A stretch of DNA of 20,809 nt from Phoronis ovalis (Eukaryota > Phoronida > Phoronidae), in NCBI GenBank assembly GCA_028565635.1, contig JAOXYB010109603.1:1-20809 (forward strand), read 5' to 3'. Within the stretch, counting starts at the first letter, position 1, and each line of letters opens with the position of its first letter. Below, piece by piece: positions 3,547-18,000 of the stretch. Below the pieces are notes generated by a model. It had not been told where the DNA came from. It did no database searches and was given only the letters and a program-made list of their open reading frames with translations. The position numbers and the translations under genes are program-made.

Positions 3547-3954
3547 CCTCAGACCCCGGGGGGTACTCAAGGTTTTTTGACTACGGGGATGTGCCGCGGA
3601 CCCCAATCCAAAATTTTAGCTTGTGGTAGCAAACCCAATCCAAATTTTTTGAAATTTTAAGGTAGCAATCCAAATTTTGTGAATTATAAGGGTAGCAATC
3701 CAAAATTTAAAAATATTTGAGTAGCAATCCATTTTTACGCAAAAGACTGATACAAACCAAATTCCAAAAATCGTTTTACGGATACAAACCTAAAATTAAT
3801 CCAAATTCTTTGCAATCCAAATTTTTTAATTTGTTTACGGTAGCAATCCAAAAAAAATACAGTAAGAAGTATACAATCCAAATCCAAATTTTTTAACTGG
3901 GCTGCACACCCCCACCAAAAAATACCTCGAGTACCCCCCCCCCGGGCCTCAGAC
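3547..3954. mobile_element. Non-autonomous DNA transposon with TIRs and 8-bp target duplication
   Basis: The element proper is 3555-3946 (392 bp). Its left end begins CCCGGGGGGTACTCAAGG. The reverse complement of its right end begins CCCGGGGGGGGGGTACTCGA, continuing GGTATTTTTT. The octamer CCTCAGAC abuts both ends (3547-3554 and 3947-3954). Eight-bp target duplications are the habit of hAT and P superfamilies. The interior is made of degenerate direct repeats of GTAGCAATCCAAATTT spaced about 30-35 bp and has no coding capacity. It ends about 95 bp before the peptide ORF exon. Confidence 0.85.
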
Positions 3955-4035
3955 TCATCAGTTAGCCACCAAATTGGATGTGTGATAAAATTGAAACGAT
4001 GCTTGCTGTAAAGAGGCCAAATATCGATACATCAA

Positions 4036-4050
4036 TGTATTTCTTTGTAG
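4036..4050 (+). promoter_or_regulatory. Splice acceptor before the peptide ORF
   Basis: TGTATTTCTTTGTAG immediately precedes the ATG at 4051. A short pyrimidine tract ends in TAG. If used, the exon begins exactly with the start codon. I could not identify the matching upstream exon or donor. Confidence 0.5.
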
Positions 4051-4326
4051 ATGCAGAATATACAAAAAAATATTCTACTGTTGGTGCTACTTACAATCGC
4101 ATATACATCCACTACCGCATTAGACTTTGGAGTTTGCGGGTTGACCTCATCAAGATATACTTGTATTATTGGCTGTTTGCGATGCGCCGAATTTTATGGT
4201 CACAGGTCGTACGATACACTAGCCTGCTGCGACCAATGCAAAAGGACTCAAGCAGTAATAATTGATGATGGACCGGATGTATGCAACTTTCTGCGACCGA
4301 AAGAAGTTGGATCGCGAGTTGGATAG
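4051..4326 (+). CDS. Candidate secreted cysteine-rich peptide, eclosion-hormone-like
   Basis: The 91-residue product is predicted to be a secreted peptide hormone. Residues 1-23 form a signal peptide with hydrophobic core ILLLVLLTIAY and likely cleavage after TSTTA. The mature part has cysteines at 29, 38, 42, 45, 59, 60, 63 and 78. CIIGCLRCAEFYG reproduces the eclosion-hormone pattern C-x3-C-x2-C-x4-G, followed by C-x3-C (59-63) and a last cysteine (78) before NFL. Arthropod eclosion hormone has six cysteines in this order and a C-terminal FL. Two extra cysteines (29, 60) could form a fourth disulfide. The ATG stands directly after a splice acceptor (TTTCTTTGTAG), so a 5' untranslated exon lies upstream. 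Length and layout suit a neuropeptide precursor. The family call rests on spacing only; it could be an unrelated small secreted peptide, or a chance frame. Confidence 0.6.
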   Translation: MQNIQKNILLLVLLTIAYTSTTALDFGVCGLTSSRYTCIIGCLRCAEFYGHRSYDTLACCDQCKRTQAVIIDDGPDVCNFLRPKEVGSRVG

Positions 4327-5884
4327 GAATGTGATCGGAACGGCTAGACCAAATTCTAGTATAAAAGCGCTCAACCTTTTTTGAAGAGAGAACTGGGGAC
4401 ACGAGTTCTGTTGAATTGTGATACTGGCAGTTTATATATGAGCTTTTCAACCATTGAAATGCGTAAACTGTTGTTGATTCATCGTCCATAAAATGACTAT
4501 GATGCACTGTGCACGCGCAAAACAATTAGCATTAATGCCTGCATTGTACCATTTTTGCGTCTTTTTTGTTTGTTTGTTTTGCTGTCCGTTACTGACAGCA
4601 TCTGGTTAATTACAAATACACGGATGCTATTCTGGTACTGTTTACGAATATAAAGCAAAATGTGGAATTAATTTGTTGAAACATTATTTTGTAATGCTGT
4701 CATGTTTAGTGTTCGTAGAAATAACTCACCGTTTGCTAAATTTAACTGACCGCTACTTTTTACGGTTTTCGTACATATGTGAGATATTAGATAGTTGTCT
4801 TTTGTAGCTTTACACTAGATTTGTCTACCGGTTTGTTAAATCTGAAAATGTCAAACACGAATTGTTCTTATTAGATAACAATGATTAAGTCCCGGTGCTA
4901 GGTGCGCTTCTCGCTCAATTACTAGGTATGACCAGCGCCAATAGATGCCCACACAGAACAGAACAGTGATTGGTTAATTTTTACCAAGAAGTAACATCTT
5001 CAATCAATAAGACAACTATAGTACAAAGTTTAGCAATATTAAACTTATATCAGATTTATTCGCGTTAATTAAATATATTGATTTTTGATAGATATCCAAA
5101 TGCGTCAATAGCATAACAAGTGGCAATTAAAAATTTAATTTATTTTAAAGTTAACAAGAAGCTTCTAAAAATGACAAAATACATAAATTCATCAACTGCT
5201 AATATTTCAACATAAAATATTCTGACTCTGTATTTTTCAACCATGGCAATTATATTAAGTAAATGTCTACTGTTAACAAAACAGCTGCGTCGCCAATTAC
5301 CAAGTTAATGAAGAAGGATTCCCAATATCAAAGGTTTATAGCGTCCTACTGCATATATCAATCAAGAGGGTGCTCTGTTAAAATCATCAGGGAGGGGCTT
5401 TGAAATATTTCGCCTTCCTAGTAATTTCAGCGGTTTCAGTTCACCTCGCCCAATAATTAAAGTGAACAATGAAACACTTTTTATACCCCTCAGGACCCCT
5501 GCCCTATAACAGAAACATAACTCCTATTATTATAATTTTTTCAGTTCTCACCCTGACGATTTTCAAGGAACATTTCCTTCAGTTATGGAACTTAGCTGTC
5601 AAACCTCCTATTAACAGTGGATTTTTTTTTTTGAAACTGTCACAAGGGCATTTGATGTAGACCATGAAAAGAGCATTTGTTGTACGGTATGTTTTGATGG
5701 CTGAAATAGCTTCCATCATGACTGATATCTTGTGCAGAACCATGCTGCACTACTGTATTAATGTCATCAAGTTTCCTCTGTAAAAGCCATCTTGAGCAGG
5801 TGTCTGTTCGACTAATGAAACAATTTTAGAAGCTTATTAAATGAAAGTGTTGGGGTTCAATCCCATACAACTCGCAGCATTAAA
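4327..5884. other. Tail-to-tail intergenic region / presenilin 3' UTR
   Basis: About 1.56 kb between the peptide stop codon (plus) and the presenilin stop (minus). It should hold both 3' UTRs and polyadenylation sites. AATAAA on the minus strand occurs at 5144-5139 and 5060-5055. No coding feature is recognised. The 63-codon plus-strand frame at 5469-5660 has no support. Confidence 0.6.
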
Positions 5885-6040
5885 CTATACATAAACTTGA
5901 TGTCCAGCGAGCACCTCCATAAACGGTTCGACAGCATATCTGGTGGCAAAAAAGAAGACGAGTCCAAAAGCAATGGATATAGGTAGTGCTGGTAATGCCT
6001 TTCTAAATACTGCCAGCAACATCAATGTAAAACACAATCC
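5885..6040 (-). CDS. PSEN: Presenilin exon 11: TM8-TM9, PALP motif and stop (residues 437-487)
   Basis: 156 nt including TAG at 5887-5885. The acceptor is ACTTTTTTCCAG|GGA. It encodes [20 protein letters not shown], then [20 protein letters not shown] and the C-terminus LAGHQVYV (human ends in HQFYI). PALP (453-456) contributes to the active-site conformation in the family. A possible polyadenylation hexamer AATAAA (minus strand) is at 5144-5139, about 740 nt past the stop; this is only a candidate. Confidence 0.98.
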
Positions 6041-9000
6041 CTGGAAAAAAGTGACAACAGTTAAAGAAACTCATGAATAACTGACTGTTCAGTTCTAAAA
6101 CAATTTCATAATTATATAAAATAAAGCATTTACAGAAAAAGTTCAAAGCTTTTGTCATCACCCAACATTTCTCTGAGGTCTCAATTTAGTATATTATGTA
6201 AATTTTACACTTCTACAGCATATGAAGAAAATTTTCTCTTTCTACGATTGTGAACTCTTACCACTTCTATATTACATACGAGTCACGATCCTCAGGTGTA
6301 TTTAGTTAAGTTATATTCCAAATTGCCCCATACTTTAATAATTGATTAATCTTACAGTACATTTTACCTATCTCCATATATTTCTTACTGATATAATAAT
6401 GTACTATCGAAATGTTAAAAGTGAGGAGTGTCTTTCTTGTTTTATTGAACTTCTTTAGTATATGCATCTATGATGCCTATTATTTTGTAGTAAACTAGAT
6501 GTATTTGTTGGAATTTAACATCATTCAAAGTCACTGATAGTTTTAGTTAACATGACTCATGCATCAGTCCTCTAGCCATCGTTTTCACAATAAAGTCACT
6601 TCCTGGTGTTTCACAATATCAATGGCTAGTTGTAGGTACAATAGAATGACATTTTGTCTAAGTATTGGAATGCCCAAAGGTCTTTTTAAATTCTGAATAA
6701 ATCTCTTTAATTTGATCTTATTAGTGTAGTAGTGTATTTGAAAGAGATGAAAAATATCTAGATCGTCCTGTGAGGAACAATAAAGATTTCAAACTTAATT
6801 TTTCAATTATATAATAAGAACATTAATACATCAGATAATTTGAAGAATGACAGAAATAATTCAATACTATATTTCTCTGATATATGTAAAACGAGGCTTA
6901 ACCCTTCACAAACATTATAATGTTCATAGTATACTATAATTTGCAGCAAGAGTATCAAAGAAACATGTGTGAGTAAGCGAACTATGTATTCCGATGCAAT
7001 TAACGCTATTATTTCCCCAATTATAGTCAAGAGTGAAAGAGAAACAGTAGGCTTAATCTAATTAAAACGTGACATTCAGCCTACTCTCCCGGATTATATA
7101 AAATAACATTTAGAAAGATGAAAAATGCTGTTATGTTCTTTTGAAATTGTGAATACTCTGTGGAGATTAAACAGTCGAGTCTAATTAACCTGTTTTTTGC
7201 AAAGTAAATTATGTGCTGCACTTAGAAAAAGGCTTTTGTATATTTTGTCAGACAGTGATTACCTGGAAATGAGATAATTCTGAAAAGTGACCTTAACGAT
7301 GTTGAAAATATAGAACATTACACTAATGTTGCTACCTTTGATACACTTGAATTTATCTTATAATCTTCATCAGATAACAAAACAATATTGCTGACATTAA
7401 AAATCTTGGACTTTCCTAATCCAATAATTTCAGGCTTATTAAAGGTATTTAGTTTTTATAAAAAAAACTAAACTTTTTGAAAGCTTATAGCGGGAAGCTT
7501 CGAATACAAATATAAAATAAAGTTTAAACAAATTAGCCAATTTTATTATTTTAATAATAAAAAAATTAAAATTAATCAAAATATTTCTCAAAACCAAAAA
7601 CACTATTTTTAAGAAGTTTGATTATTCAATTCTTTAAAATTAAAAAAAAACAAGGTTGAAAAAGTATTATCAAAATAGTAATGTTTAAATAAGTAAATGG
7701 AACATGGAGAGGGCCCTGGAAAACAGTCCATGGGTACAGTAGCTATAATATAGTACTTACAATAAGCACTGCAAGAGCACAGGCCAGTGTGGTGTTCCAA
7801 TCTGCATCTGCAGCAGCTCTACCAACCAAAATACTATAGAATATGAAGTCTCCTAGGCCAAGCTTTACTCCACCTGTACAGAAGACATAACATATAAAAT
7901 AACAGTCACACAGGAGGAAAAATTTAACTCATGTCAGTGTAGTGTGGGTGTTAATTATCAGCTGAATAACTTTAGACTTGTTAGGAATCAATGTCTGTCA
8001 TTAAAATTGGAAGGTGTTTATTTACACATATTCTTTTAGAAAATAAGCAAAATATATGCATGTAAAATAGCTACATACAATATAAATAATCACATGTCAT
8101 GGCTTTAGCCAGGGGTGTGACAGCCCAGTGAGGTCTGTGCAAACATTTTTAAACTTTATAAAAATTTACATATTAGTTTTATTTCTTTTTCATATACGCT
8201 AAAAAATCAATTAGGTGTTGGGGTACAAATAAATGTGGCTATATTTTGTCTCATGACTTGTCTGCATACATATAAAGTTTATTTAGCAGCAAATGCATTA
8301 AAGAATGTAAACAGTACATGCTTTAAACCTGGCTAGAGTTATGCACAATACCAGCAACCAGTTGTGAATGTGAGCAAAATGCAGGTGCTACATATCTACC
8401 CTAGACTACTAGAGGTACTATGACTGAAAACAGATTGTCATCACTAGCCCTGATGCATATCCACAACACTATAGTATCAACTTTGGGGATTTGTTCGCAA
8501 AACAACATCCTAGGAGGCTAGAACTTGTGACTCTTCTGAGTGACTAATATTATTAAACAGTTAAACTGTAGCATTAAGCAACAAAAAATCTTTGAATGTA
8601 TCTTAGTAGTGCACTCTGATTCTTTTATTGGTCTTCAAACCCTTCATTCTATTTGATGTACACTCAGGAGAGCTCAGGAAGCACACACAGAGCACAGAAT
8701 ATGGTGTAGCTTCCAGGGGCTATGGCAGTCCCTGGACCCTGGCCAGGCAAAGGGGGCACATCTACCCTTTGGAAATTCCTTGAGTTTCGTATCGCTTGAT
8801 ATCGTATCCAGCATAACAAAATAAGCACCATCCCACAACAAATCCTGCCAACGGCCCTGTATACTTACGTTCTTGTTGGTCTTCTTCAGTATTTTCTACT
8901 CTTTGAGGGCGTGGGCCCTGTATACTTACGTTCTTGTTGGTCTTCTTCAGTATTTTCTACTCTTTGAGGACGTGGGCTCTGTATACTTACGTTGTTGTTG

Positions 9001-12000
9001 GTCTTCTTCAGTATTTTCTACTCTTTGAGGATGTGGGCCCTGTGTATTTACGTTCTTGTTGGTCTTCTTCAGTATTTTCTACTCTTTGAGGACGTGTGCC
9101 CTGTATACTTACGTTCTTGTTGGTCTTCTTCAGTATTTTCTACTCTTTGAGGACGTGGGCCCTGTATACTTACATTCTTGTTGGTCTTCTTCAGTATTTT
9201 CTACTCTTTGAGGACGTGGGCCCTGTATACTTACGTTCTTGTTGGTCTTCTTCAGTATTTTCTACCCTTTGAGGACGTGGGCCCTGCATACTTACGTTCT
9301 TGTTCGTCTTCTTCAGTATTTTCTACTCTTTGAGGACGTGGGTTTTCATCAGGTTCACCCAAGCTTCTGACTGCTTGACGTGCACGCTGAGAATCTGTGC
9401 TATCTGTTGATCGTGTCTGCTGACGACTGCGTCCATGTTGATTTTCATGACCTTCAGTCCTCGCACCAAAGCCACCATCATCACTATCCTCCCCTGAACC
9501 AGCAGCACCTAGGGCACAAAAGATATGATAAATAACGATGAGTACAAACATTTCTGATATAAGTTGCTAGTACAGGTAACACTTTCGGAGGTTTAGCTCC
9601 ATCATCCACTCAGTAACTACCCAAGTAGTGTTTGCTTGGCAATATGGTAACTTTCATCTACGACAGTGAAATTTTTTATTGTACCTTGGGAATATATTGG
9701 TCTGATTCCTGATGAAGGAGTATTCCTTGATTGGCTTTCTCCTGTTGTATCAGTGTCAGCCATACCAACCATCCAAATCATTGTAGCTGTAAATAAAGAG
9801 AATTTTTAAAGTCAACTTACACACTTAATACTTAGCATGAACATTGTTTCACACTTTTAAACGTTTAGGACAATTTATTAAAATTAGAAAGTCTAAGAAC
9901 TTAAAAGTGTTAATATAACAGCAGCTGATGATGAATACAGTAGTTGTACTAGGTCTAGATAATAGGGAAACAAATTATAATCATATTAGCTATCTGAATG
10001 TATTAGGTGGTGCAGAGATCCCAGTGAACTGTAGGATTGATTGAAGTTACTTCCTTGGCAACAATCAATGAACTTGGGTGAATTATGAGATACACTGGGT
10101 TCACGTAACCACACACCTAGTGCTTGGTCAGTTCAGTGCAAATAGCTTTTGAAAACAACTAATCACACCACTTCTGTAGAAATAAAAATGTGTCACTGAA
10201 ACTTACTACAACTCCATGATATATTGTTAATAATTTCTATGGCATAGGTTAGATTTAACAGACAAGGCCATACTGTAAACATTAGGGCATTAGTATCTAT
10301 TATGACCTAGAGGGCAAAAGGTCATGTAAAGGTCGAACGTTAGGTTATTTAAAATTATTCAGGAACATTCCAATCAGTTTGTAATAAATATCAATTAGGA
10401 AATTTTGTTGATTTGTAAAATTGTTGTAGAGGTAGAACACTCATACACGCACACACATCAATTGCGCTCATACGCTAATTGTGCTACAAAACTGACAACA
10501 TTTAGGAGACTACCTTAATAGAAACATCAGAAGGAGATATCTATCACAAAATGATAATTTTTAGTAACTTTGGTTTATTTATCGTTTGACATTTTCTTTG
10601 CATAATCTTGCTAATCAAGGATTCTGGATTCTACTAGTAGAATGAACATTCCTTTAAATTAAAGCACAAATAAAGAAAATTGTATAAATTAAAAAAATGT
10701 CAAAGTACATTAATTATGCAACAGAAATGTTTTCCATTAAGTTTAAGTTTACACAGTACCTTAATGTTTAACCTGCTTCAACATAAGTACTTCAAATTCA
10801 ATTTTTTACAATTTTCTTGAAAACTTAAAAATTTTCAGTGTTTTTAGATTCTTCAATACATGGCAATTGTCCATGCAAATTTTAATCAGCTTAGTGCATT
10901 ATATATGTACAAAAAATATTTAGTTCCAACTGGGGTTCCAATCCAACAGCCAAAATGTAACATTTTTATGTTAAATGCTTAGATAAAATCCATGATTGGT
11001 GGCTAAATATGACCTGCCAGCATGACCTCTATGTGTGATGCTATATTAGATATTTACTAACCTGAATGTTTCAAAACTAAATATACCAATAATTTACAGC
11101 ACTGGGGACAATTATAGACTTTTTTTGCAAAAATTACAACCCCTTTTGTCATGCATAAAAAAATGTAACCTCCCTTTTTGTCAAGCACAAAAAGTAGCAA
11201 TATTCCCCGATTTGCACCAATCCATTTCTGTGGAAATTTCTGATCACACATAACATTAATTCAATAAATAACTTTACCTATTTAATTCACAACTAATTTA
11301 AATTTAAATTAAAACTCACTTTTGCTTCCAATTAAAAATACTGCCTTTACTACCACTCACTACCATATAAAATGAAAGTTTTTGCAAGCTCCAGGTCACA
11401 ATCAATTAATTACACTCAATAAAAAACATGTGTTCATATATTAGGTTTCAAAAATATAAACAAAATACAATTATGTTAAAATTATGTGGCATAACAAAAA
11501 AACTGGAAAAGTAAAAATATTGACTCTATTATAATCGAATTATAGAGTTAATATTAATTTTATATTAATTTGTCTTTTAGCTTTTTCAATTAAACTAAAT
11601 GTTTATTTTACCTATATCTTAAAAAATGAGCTCCGCCTTAACAATGCAACACATATTTTACGTATATTCCCAAAGTCTAAATCTATGAAAAATTTCAAAT
11701 TCATATGACTTAAAATAAAAAAGTTATTCACATTCAAATGTTACACCCCTGTTTAGCAGAGTGATAACATATGGTGCCTAGACACTAAAAAAAAGTTGTT
11801 TTGATGAAATTTAAATCATTATAAGATTTCATAAACTCATCAGGCTGCCAATTTTATTATATAATGAAATCTAAATTCTCATCTAATTAAACAGCACTTA
11901 CGAGCACTAGATCAAAACAACACCCTCTGGTGGTGAACAAAGAGATATGACATTCATTCTTCTGGTTCAGTCACATAATCATCATAGAATATTTATCTGT

Positions 12001-15000
12001 TTTGACTATGACCTTATGTGCACTCCTAATTTTTAGCGCGAGATTACCAACAGAAAATTATCTAAGAATTTACTTTTCTGTTGCAAATGCTTATGTTAGC
12101 TGTTTTATGCAAGTGATATGTGTGGCAACTTACTAGAATATATTAAAGCAGGAAAGATAGGCTCATTTCTTTCTTCAGCTGTTTCCACTAAAATTCTTAG
12201 AGGGCCTTTAGGACACAACACAGCTATCAAATCTAAAATAAACATACAAATGTAGTTATTACCTTGTATAATTTTTATGTACACAGCAATTCCAATGGCA
12301 CATAGTCGTTTGTTCAACAGGAATTAACAGGACATTTGCAATGTCAGATGCTTATCACATCCCTGGGATCACATCATACTGCGGGTCATATATGTGGTTT
12401 GTAGTTAGGCAGTGCAATTTTTGAAGTAGTTCCCCATACATAAAGCAAAAAACCGGAAAAATAAATGTCAAAGATTCGGATCAGTATTTTCAAATTCATT
12501 CTAAAATCCCAACTATCCTGATACATCCAATCACATGTGGTCTTTATGAATCCACATTTAAATCATCCAATCAGCGCTTCATCTTTTTGGAAAACAATGC
12601 AATGCGACGTGCCCTCTCAGGATCAAACATGTCTGCCAGTCAGCTATAGTGGAAATAACCTGATCTGGACTTTGATCATTACTTACCCTGTACCGAATAT
12701 GAAGTTGATCAGATAAAAACTGAAGGCATTATTGCAACATACCATCTCGAGAACAAACATGGACACCACTTTGCCATCTTGCAATTGATCCTGGTCAAAT
12801 TTACTCATGACCTGTGCTTTGACCTGTATTTACCATGTATCATATATAAAACTGATCGGATAAAAACTGTACCAGTTATTGCATAACCAAGAAAGTGTTA
12901 CACACAATGAAAAATGTCAAAAATTCGGATCGGCATTTGACACACTTTTAAAGGTCACTCATAAATACACAACCACCTACGGAATCCACCTTCTAGTCGT
13001 CTAGTCAATGTTTTGCCTTTCTGAAAAATGCTGCAACATGATGTACTCTTTTGGAAACAAACAGTTGGCCATATTGGAAGTAATCATAGTCAAAATTATA
13101 ACAGGCCTCTATACTTTGACCTGTATTTACCCTGTTCCAAATATGAATCTGATCGGATAAACACTGAATATTGCAACGTACCATTTCGAGAACAAACATG
13201 TCGTCAGTCGACCACCTTGGAAGTGATCCAGGTCAAAATTATATTTACCCTGTTCCAAATATGAAGCTGATCGGATAAACACTGAAGCTGTTATTGCAAC
13301 ATAACACTTCGAGAACAAACATGTCGCCAGTCGATCACCTTGGAAGTGATCCCGGTCAAAATTATGACTGACCTGTACCTTGACCAGTATTTACCCTGTA
13401 CCGAATATGAAGTTGATTGAATAAAAACTGAAGTAGTTATTGCGAGACAAAGAAAGTGTTATGTACAACAAAAAATATTATAGATTCAAATCGGCATTTG
13501 ACCAACTTAAGGTCATTTAAAAATGTCACCTAGTCCTATATGCCTACCAACCTTTGGCCTTCGTGAATCCGCCTTCGAATTGTCTAGTCAACGCTTCATC
13601 TTTATGGAAAGTGGCAAAACATAACATGCCCTCTTGGGAGCAGACATGGCCACCAGTCGGCCATATTGGAAGTACCCCAGGTCAAAATTACACCTGACCT
13701 GCACTTTGGCCTCTGTACCAAATATGAAGCTGGTTGAATAAAATCCGAAGTTGTTATTGCGAGACAAAGAAAGTGTTACATGACAATGATGCATACAAGA
13801 CGATTATATGCCCATTTCATTTTACTATGCGAGATGGACATAATAACAAACACAAGCAGTTATTTTTCTTTAAATGCGTACAGCAATACGGTACCACAAA
13901 ACTTGTCAGAAGTTGCCTGAATAATGATGTAAGCCTTACAGAGTAAATATTCATCTTGTATGGTACGTATATGATTTAAGTTGCATGTGCAGTTTAGGTC
14001 ATACTTTGCAATTCTTCACAACGAATTTATGGATTCTTTTGTCTTTAAAGTATATGTAACTCATATATATATGTTACACTAACAAATAAGAGGAGTTGAA
14101 CTTTACAAACCTCCATTTTGCAAGTCGTCTGAACTAAATAATCTTGACACCTGTGATTTCTTAATGTAGTGACTTTGTAACTTTTAAGTCAAGAGACACA
14201 AGAGTTACTAATTTTAAGGTAAGAAATGTATACAAAAGATTAATATTCAATATGCAAACTTTATGAATGGTACGATACCAGATTAATTTTTTCTTGCTTC
14301 TTACCCCAAATTGAAATAACGGCTAATACGACATAAGTTGTCCATTCTGGCAGATATTTGATGAAGACAAGTGCCATAAGAGCACTGACCATGATTAGAT
14401 ACGCCTGCTGTAGAAGTAAAGGACCTTTCCAATGTATCGAGATCATACCAACTCCCCCGAAATTCCACATTATGAATACTACAGTAATGTAGTCCATTGG
14501 TACATTGTAAGATCTCAACACTTCCCTGTAATACATAACACACTTGCTTAACGAACATATGTGTACCATAAACTCAAGTCAACAGGATGTGAACAGTTCA
14601 ACCACGTATAATCTCCAAAGAAATGTTAAAAACAATTATTTATCTATTTAAATAGTTACTGCTAAGTCTTAACGTAATGCTTTTTACCTGTAATTAAAAT
14701 AACCAGCAAGAATTTGTGGTAATTATATTTTACATGCTTACTAGTAATATCACCATGACACCTGGTACAATGGCAGAATGAAAAAACTGATTCCAAGAAA
14801 ATTTCCAGATATTATACAAAATGTCATATTAAGTATATAACTGATGAGGGCATTATGTGTATGCATAAACAGAATGCTTGCAGTCCTACCCTAGGCACTC
14901 ATGATTTTTTGAATACAGGAATGTGCCCAATCCAAATATAGGGACAGCAATCCAAATTTAGAAATATTTGACTTGCAATGCATTTTTACACAAAACTGAT

Positions 15001-18000
15001 GATACAAACCAAATGGAACATGGATAAGTAATCTACAACTTTGAAAATTATCTTGTAGCAAGTCAAATTATTTGCTGTGTGAGGTAAAAAGTATGCAATC
15101 CAATTCCAAAATTTTCACTCCTACCTCACATCCTTACTCAAAAATAACTTGAACATCCCTCTGGGAACCTACCGCGGTTGCATAACTTAGTAACATCTAA
15201 ACTCACCCTAAATATACATATGAGAAGAAGAACAGTAGAAGTAATGATGACACTATTAACCATCCATGGATAAACTGTAAAACAAGGTCTCATAGTTAAT
15301 AATTAAAATCACCTTGCATTGTGCTCACAAGTAGTTATTTAGTTTAGGGTTAATTGCATCACTATCATATCTAGTATTATAAATATCAGAAGGCTGTAAT
15401 TTAAGTATTACTAGACAGCACCCGTGGTAAACCACAGATATTGATAGAGATGTAGGTCACGTAAGACCGAGTTCAGACATGTTCACGTAACTCTCACAGG
15501 CAAAAAATAATGATGCAATAGTTTCAAAAATGCCCCATTAAATATGATACCGTTGACCTATTGACCCCAAAATTTGAGGAACCCGAGCCATCGTCGATAC
15601 CTACGATGTGTGAAAAGATCATGATTCTACATGTAATAGTTTTGAAGATATTTGGTGGAAAGAGTGGCAGACAGAGAGACGGACACTCGAGATTTATTAG
15701 TATAGATAGTTTGGCAAGTGTACCAAAGAAACAAGCAAGGGACTAGGAAAGCCGAAAGTCCCCCTGGTACATTATCATGTAATCTCTACAAATTCTGGGA
15801 CATGAGAAAACTTTTACTATTGTGCATCTTCTCTACAAGAATTGTTATTCACCAGATCAGGGGTGCAGGGGGAGTTTTCTACACATTATGATGAGCCGAG
15901 GATAATAAATCTTTTTGTTCATACTATACACAAGCAATTTGTACCAAATCAGGAGTGGCTTGAATATGCAAACAGGGGAGAAAAGGGCTTTATACTGGTT
16001 GAATCAGCAAAATACTACAGTATTGAGCAGTCTGGGTGCACAGTGCAATGCGATTATTCAATGTGATATTCATAATATAAAAAAAAACGTTTCTTTAATT
16101 ATCTTATGAACACTGATTACCACTTGTAAGTTAAATAATATTTTAAGACTAACATTTTCTTCAACACTTTTATGTCCATTTTTGTTGCCTGTTAAAAGCG
16201 TTGTTGCTCAACAAACTGGCTTTTTTTGAAACATCAAGCGTGGGCAATACTAGACTCATGTCTGCAGTGAAAAGAACCCCTCTTTTGGTTAATTTCAAAA
16301 GATAATATTGACAGATATAGTATTATGTGGGGTAATTAGGAAATATTTTGGGGCATAATTTAGGAGAAAAAACAAGTGACAAAAGACTGAAGATTTTAGA
16401 AGCGTTTTCAATGTCGCATGACATAGCTGTATACAAACTGCTTGAACATTACGCTTCCAGCATGGGCCATATATCTTATATAACATGTTCTCGTAAATTA
16501 CATGGCTCATCATGATGCAGGTCAATACCATGAAATTGTGTTTGGAAAACCTGAATGCTAACAGGATAATATCATGAAAGTATTTATTTTCAACTAGCCA
16601 TTTACTAAATGTACGCTTATGATTAACAGACGTTTTGTATACTAAAGCTAATCTACGAGGCCTTAAACATGATTACCATATTTACCTTATAACATCTGTA
16701 TTTGTACAGAACTATAAGAAATGTAGTCATTACAACGACTGCTCCCAAGACAATTAAAGCATTAGCTATGGACTGCCATATTGTTGTACCAGTGTCTGCA
16801 CCTTCATCATGGAATGGAGTGTATATACTGAAATGCAAAAAGACACAAATAAATACAAATATGTGCCTTACCTTATTGCATCTAGAGTGTTAAAAGATCC
16901 AAAAATTCTAAACAACTGTTTTGTTTTCACAAATTTTGCATTAAAGTTCTAAATGCTAATTGCACTAAAAGCCTATACAACCACCACTTATTTTGAGGCT
17001 GCCAAATCATTGCAGTTAGACCTTGTTTACTCAGCAGCCTTATCATATTAAACTCTTTTGCCACAACTCTCAGCAAGAAATATGATTGATGAAAATGGTG
17101 AGAAACCTGTGGTTTTACTCCCGACCAAATGTTAATTGCAGTGAAAACAGGTTGTAAAGAGTATTAATCCTGGAACATTATTTATAGCAAAATTCACCAT
17201 TACACTTACAGATATCCTTGCTTTTGTGTGTAGTACTTGACTGATTTAATGGTGGCTACTACAACAATAAGGCATAATGATACAGGAACAAACAGCATGA
17301 TGACATGTTTGGCACCGTATTTTAACTCTTCTTGTTCCTGTTCCTCATTAGATGGTTCTTGTCTCCTTTGTCTTGGTTGAGTCTCATTATTACGTGCTGA
17401 CCTATTTTCTTGTACACCTGGTTGTGCACTACCATCTTCCTGTGTTCCTTCTCCATTCTAAAACACAGCATTTTTTTGTAAAAATATAAAATTACAGTTG
17501 AGTGTAAGCTTGTTTCCTGTCCTTTCCAGCATTATTAGTTATGTAAGCGTCTACCATTTGAAGCTACAATAGCTAAAGAACTAATAGTAAACAGGGGCCA
17601 GTTGTCGGAAACATTGTAAAGCTTCAATTCCGCAAATCATAACTTACAGAAGCAAATGCATTGTCACCAAAAATATTAACTTTACGACTTGTGTAGGCAT
17701 CTTTACAGAGTTTCGGAATCGTAAGAATTTACAGAATTCGCAAGTATTTATGGAACTGTAACTTTACAATGTTTCCAACAACAGGCCCCAGGTTTCCAAG
17801 ACACTGTGCTATTTCCTATATAAAAAGCATCAGTGATTGTTAAAATAACAAATATCCTTGATAATAATATCAGAAAGCATAGCAAGAAAATTAGTGTTCT
17901 GGTATAGGCTTAGCACACGGTTTTTACCGCTGTGCAAAAGTGTGATCATCTGATATTAAACACTTTGTGCTCTAGCAGTGAAAAAAAAGTATCACGATGC

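Follow-up and report, generated by a model that had tools for sequence, protein, structure and literature searches.

On its forward strand, the window (the whole analyzed stretch of 20,809 nucleotides of Phoronis ovalis DNA, contig C4772 of a 77.4 Mb assembly) contains at positions 4051–4326 a coding frame of 91 amino acids plus stop, a candidate precursor of a secreted cysteine-rich peptide. The frame probably represents a phoronid gene with a single coding exon and, as its product, a small, disulfide-rich signal or effector peptide that has no recognizable kin. The original prediction had proposed a neuropeptide gene similar to eclosion hormone (EH); a gene for a small secreted cysteine-rich peptide is supported by the evidence below, whereas the EH identity is unsupported past the spacing of the cysteines. 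If expressed, the peptide would add an uncatalogued secreted molecule to those of phoronids, and should it prove to be a true EH, it would illustrate the extent to which this family can drift with its disulfide core kept. As matters stand, it is an ordinary candidate for a small secreted peptide and a caution that cysteine spacing alone names no hormone.

Features of the reading frame

The translation of the frame reads MQNIQKNILLLVLLTIAYTSTTALDFGVCGLTSSRYTCIIGCLRCAEFYGHRSYDTLACCDQCKRTQAVIIDDGPDVCNFLRPKEVGSRVG, followed by the stop codon. Residues 1–23 (4051–4119) form a hydrophobic stretch and, by a crude hydropathy rule, a signal-like start, in agreement with the signal peptide of the original prediction; a cleavage after Ala23 is proposed by eye. 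The putative mature region (residues 24–91, 4120–4323) contains cysteines at positions 29, 38, 42, 45, 59, 60, 63, and 78, and the full framework of eight cysteines is C-x8-C-x3-C-x2-C-x13-CC-x2-C-x14-C, with C60 adjacent to C59. The pattern described at first, C-x3-C-x2-C-x4-G-x8-C-x3-C-x14-C, is indeed present (C38, C42, C45, G50, C59, C63, and C78), but it omits C29 and C60. The Asn-Phe-Leu (NFL) motif, taken earlier for the C-terminus, corresponds to residues 79–81, immediately past the last cysteine (Cys78), and is followed by ten further residues, RPKEVGSRVG. The Lys64-Arg65 pair (4240–4245), unmentioned in the earlier description, is located between Cys63 and Cys78 and may constitute a dibasic processing site.

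The ATG directly follows a splice-acceptor-like tract (4034–4050) ending in TAG, which is an in-frame stop as well. The sequence immediately 5' of the ATG is TTTCTTTGTAG, with pyrimidines at 10 of the 15 bases preceding the AG. The original prediction argued that a chance frame would seldom have such a context; an AG with at least 9 pyrimidines among 15 bases directly precedes 176 of 12,272 ATGs (1.4%; both strands of 77 other loci and the window). The splicing itself is putative.

Once transcribed, the gene would give rise to a precursor directed to the secretory pathway by its signal peptide, which would be cleaved off near Ala23. The 68 residues that are left might form a compact, largely helical domain around as many as four disulfide bridges, and the folded peptide would work extracellularly as a signal or an effector. 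Two single-sequence models of the peptide, both of low confidence (mean pLDDT of 60.7 and 52.9, which is poor), place helices over the cysteine segments, at residues 35–49 and about 54–66. Such predicted helices fit many helical cysteine-rich peptides and prove none of them.

A sub-case that overlaps with the preferred explanation, in which the secreted cysteine-rich peptide is not a hormone but has a defense or toxin-like role, is a possible but tentative assignment. The order of the eight cysteines, C-C-C-C-CC-C-C, speaks for it; the same order occurs in other disulfide-rich secreted peptides too. Fast divergence is usual for defense and toxin-like peptides. On the other side, a Pfam search of the peptide with E-values up to 10 returned no family, and the sequence does not reveal function; the spacing is not known to match any defense or toxin peptide family. 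By description, the peptide can be likened to cysteine-rich secreted peptides known from a single lophotrochozoan, such as the oyster Cragi-CCCGS, which is also small and secreted, contains eight cysteines, and is reported to have no relatives identified in other species (PMC8398477). A survey of phoronid neuropeptides combined BLAST searches using known precursors with pattern searches for multi-copy precursors (PMC8557429), and the word "eclosion" is absent from its main text. Searches of this kind can miss single-copy cysteine-rich peptides that have no relatives.

Coding potential of the frame

In our judgement, the frame is very likely a gene. The competing explanation, a random intergenic open reading frame with an accidental abundance of cysteine codons, is regarded as unlikely. 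A crude filter selects frames with a hydrophobic start, at least seven cysteines after residue 20, and at least 8% cysteine in that part; the filter was defined once the finding was known, and the statistics are likewise post hoc. In the whole window, the filter passes the frame at 4051–4326 alone, also at a threshold of five cysteines, which makes it the sole frame of its kind there. None of the 211 ATG frames of 60–200 codons at 77 other loci of the genome (267,737 bases; 81 loci minus the window, L001, and the mitochondrial loci L004–L006) passes, and at the threshold of five cysteines only one does (L074, with six cysteines and a poor start). When the window was simulated 300 times with a second-order Markov model, five frames passed the filter, which speaks for a gene; scaled to a simulated genome of this size, this gives about 60 such frames, a number that favors chance. 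The spacing C-x3-C-x2-C-x12-13-C-x3-C is found in none of the 3,940 ATG frames of the 300 simulated windows.

The codon usage of the frame is similar to that of exons. The training data of the codon model were the longest open frames, one per locus, of 47 loci (19,353 codons in total). These are the loci whose frames reach 200 codons, out of 70 that were chosen for domains of kinases, cyclases, and seven-helix receptors. The frame scores 0.058 log-odds per codon, at the 57th percentile of 191 exon pieces (median of 0.049), and its score is matched by 6% of 130 chance frames, as is the synonymous part alone, which makes this a weak test; the exon pieces were included in the training, and some of the chance frames may be real exons. 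Over its own span, the frame outscores the five other reading frames by a small margin (0.058 versus 0.046 for the next). Its GC content is 0.42, compared to 0.32 in non-coding stretches. Both the peptide and the DNA of the frame have a single match in the 77 Mb assembly, the frame itself, and it thus does not have the character of a recognized repeat.

A collection of 5.8 billion proteins yields no candidate that has three 5-residue words in common with the peptide. The missing protein match weighs little, because even the neighboring presenilin reaches at most 61% identity among the best 120 of 4,104 matches (66% over 376 columns in the tree alignment); judging by the matches, the collection seems to be without a close nuclear relative. 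On the plus strand, no AATAAA occurs from the frame to position 6120, and weaker variants are found downstream (AATATA at 4647, ATTAAA at 5038 and beyond). A chance frame is favored by the lack of a homologue in the protein collection, by the number of such frames expected from the simulations, by the share of chance frames that equal its codon score, and by the plus strand without AATAAA. It has to account, however, for the coincidence of a start codon, a signal-like segment, a cysteine-rich body, an acceptor-like context, the raised GC content, and coding-like codons in one and the same frame.

Relation to eclosion hormones and similar peptides

Membership of the peptide in the EH family is improbable. 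The resemblance read from the sequence lies in the cysteine spacing, and kinship may be envisaged on this ground: the peptide would then be a neurohormone, either a diverged EH or a representative of the broader EH/ITP/CHH group, that combines the EH disulfide core with an extra bridge C29–C60 and acts via a membrane guanylyl cyclase. The peptide and the EHs (PF04736) have in common a signal-like start, a short cysteine-rich mature part, and the elements C-x3-C-x2-C-x4-G and, after them, C-x3-C. The order of the cysteines is kept, the first four of the five intervals are equal or longer by one (3, 2, 13, and 3 versus 3, 2, 12, and 3), and a glycine is located five positions past the third EH cysteine. 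Beyond that, the two frameworks differ: the peptide has C-x3-C-x2-C-x13-C-x3-C-x14-C and two more cysteines, eight in place of six, whereas insect EH sequences have C-x3-C-x2-C-x12-C-x3-C-x10-C, so the last interval is 14 instead of 10. The G-x-[WY]-F-x-G motif of the insect sequences is absent, and a Lys-Arg pair is placed within the core. Phe-Leu is also misplaced, standing directly past Cys78 with ten residues behind it, while in insect EHs it occurs near the C-terminus, about 8–10 residues past the last cysteine.

Permutations of the composition of residues 25–91 produce C-x3-C-x2-C-x11-14-C-x3-C in 403 of 400,000 cases, and in 109 of 400,000 if a sixth cysteine is required 8–16 residues further on. 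The rarity of the pattern speaks for EH; nevertheless, spacing alone is cheap, as many frameworks were open to matching and this one was picked post hoc. Scored with a profile of three insect EHs, residues 25–91 reach 9.7 bits, a value that is attained by 2 of 2000 full shuffles but also by 123 of 2000 shuffles in which the cysteines are kept in place. As so many cysteine-keeping shuffles equal the real sequence in score, the likeness to EH is mainly one of spacing. Identity to the Manduca EH is 20%.

The profile searches do not bear out the EH claim either. Apart from the missing Pfam match of the peptide, a search of the genome with PF04736 does not list this locus and points to two other places, both under the cut-off, with a profile that may not represent non-arthropod EHs; a search with PF01147 likewise leaves the locus unlisted and gives five other weak places. 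The EH profiles used are presumably those of arthropod EHs, so a far-diverged EH is conceivable. The genome contains 26 matches to guanylate cyclase domains, and on contig C1318 a kinase and a cyclase domain share the same strand, which counts in favor of the EH reading; cyclases, however, are non-specific to EH and uninformative on this particular ligand.

The similarity to ITP/CHH peptides (PF01147) is limited to the C-x2-C-x12/13-C-x3-C core, whereas the profile has no match at the locus, the last interval of the peptide is longer, and it has extra cysteines. EH disulfides connect cysteines 1–5, 2–4, and 3–6. Least probable of all would be a phoronid EH/ITP branch in which a fourth disulfide, C29–C60, locks the EH core and a cut at Lys-Arg, between the fifth and sixth EH cysteines, leaves two disulfide-linked chains.

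The occurrence of EH in these animals is documented independently of the peptide. An EH ligand and its receptor are reported from phoronids by De Oliveira et al. (PMC6660194), which lends some support to the EH reading, and EH is reported in the same work from annelids, nemerteans, and molluscs, so that a homolog outside the arthropods would not be surprising. Relatives in echinoderms, mentioned in the original prediction, are described from brittle stars, a sea urchin, and a starfish (PMC5627052) and from a crinoid (PMC9793003). An oyster EH and the relation of EH to ITP/CHH are discussed in PMC8398477, and Xenoturbella is also among the subjects of the literature on the topic (PMC11521371). 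Hence, even if the peptide were a true EH, the presence of EH in phoronids is already known.

Two other loci matched by PF04736 were considered as EH candidates. L002 (21 bits, E-value of 0.021) shows no EH cysteine pattern and contains an in-frame stop, and was rejected as a chance match. L003 (contig C4522, 5957–6004, minus strand; 14.6 bits, E-value of 2.1) reads VYGKYFKGKHCSASC, with an AG that overlaps its first codon and a stop eight codons on. It resembles the EH core and is also treated as chance, though less firmly than L002; perhaps it is part of an EH exon.

Neighboring gene, repeats, and other contigs

The minus strand of the window encodes a presenilin (5885–17457) with eight recognized exons and the stop at 5885; neither the conserved exon between those containing YKYRCYK and EVLRSYN nor the gene start was located in the window. 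A position of the 4051–4326 frame inside the presenilin 3' UTR was considered. AATAAA sites are present on the minus strand at 5144 and 5060; given these, there is no need to place the frame in this 3' UTR, although such a position is conceivable. In a quick tree of 50 rows, the presenilin is placed beside that of Lingula with an SH-aLRT support of 86, which is below the program's mark of 95. A minisatellite with a 61-base unit in eight copies (8853–9342) is built from a presenilin exon's 3' end together with the splice donor. It contains five exact copies of GAAC/GTAAGTAT, and the presenilin gene thus has a consensus-like donor repeated in tandem.

Upstream of the frame, at a distance of about 100 bases, an element of approximately 390 bases (3555–3946) has inverted ends (GGGGGGTACTC[AG]AGG...) and is flanked by an 8-base repeat, CCTCAGAC, at 3547–3554 and 3947–3954. 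It is a high-copy element, with at least 42 matches including itself, and looks like a non-autonomous DNA transposon. Another repeat, at 13124–13365, is a unit of about 120 bases that is present twice in tandem. Elsewhere in the assembly, the minus strand of contig C1318 (L035 and L039) encodes a kinase-like and a guanylate cyclase domain about 1.5 kb apart, an arrangement as in a receptor guanylyl cyclase.

Contig C1114 (L005 and L006; 15,713 bases) is mitochondrial and has 12 recognized protein genes. One strand carries nad1-nad6-cob-nad4L-nad4-nad5, and the other carries cox3, atp6, nad3, nad2, cox1, and cox2; mitochondrial gene order in lophotrochozoans is the subject of PMC2728741. Among the best 120 of 7,999 matches, its COX1 is most similar to that of Phoronopsis harmeri (90%), followed by an unnamed protein (87%) and many molluscs (up to 86%). 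It is chiefly this COX1 that identifies the animal as a phoronid. In our reading, atp6 is located between cox3 and nad3.
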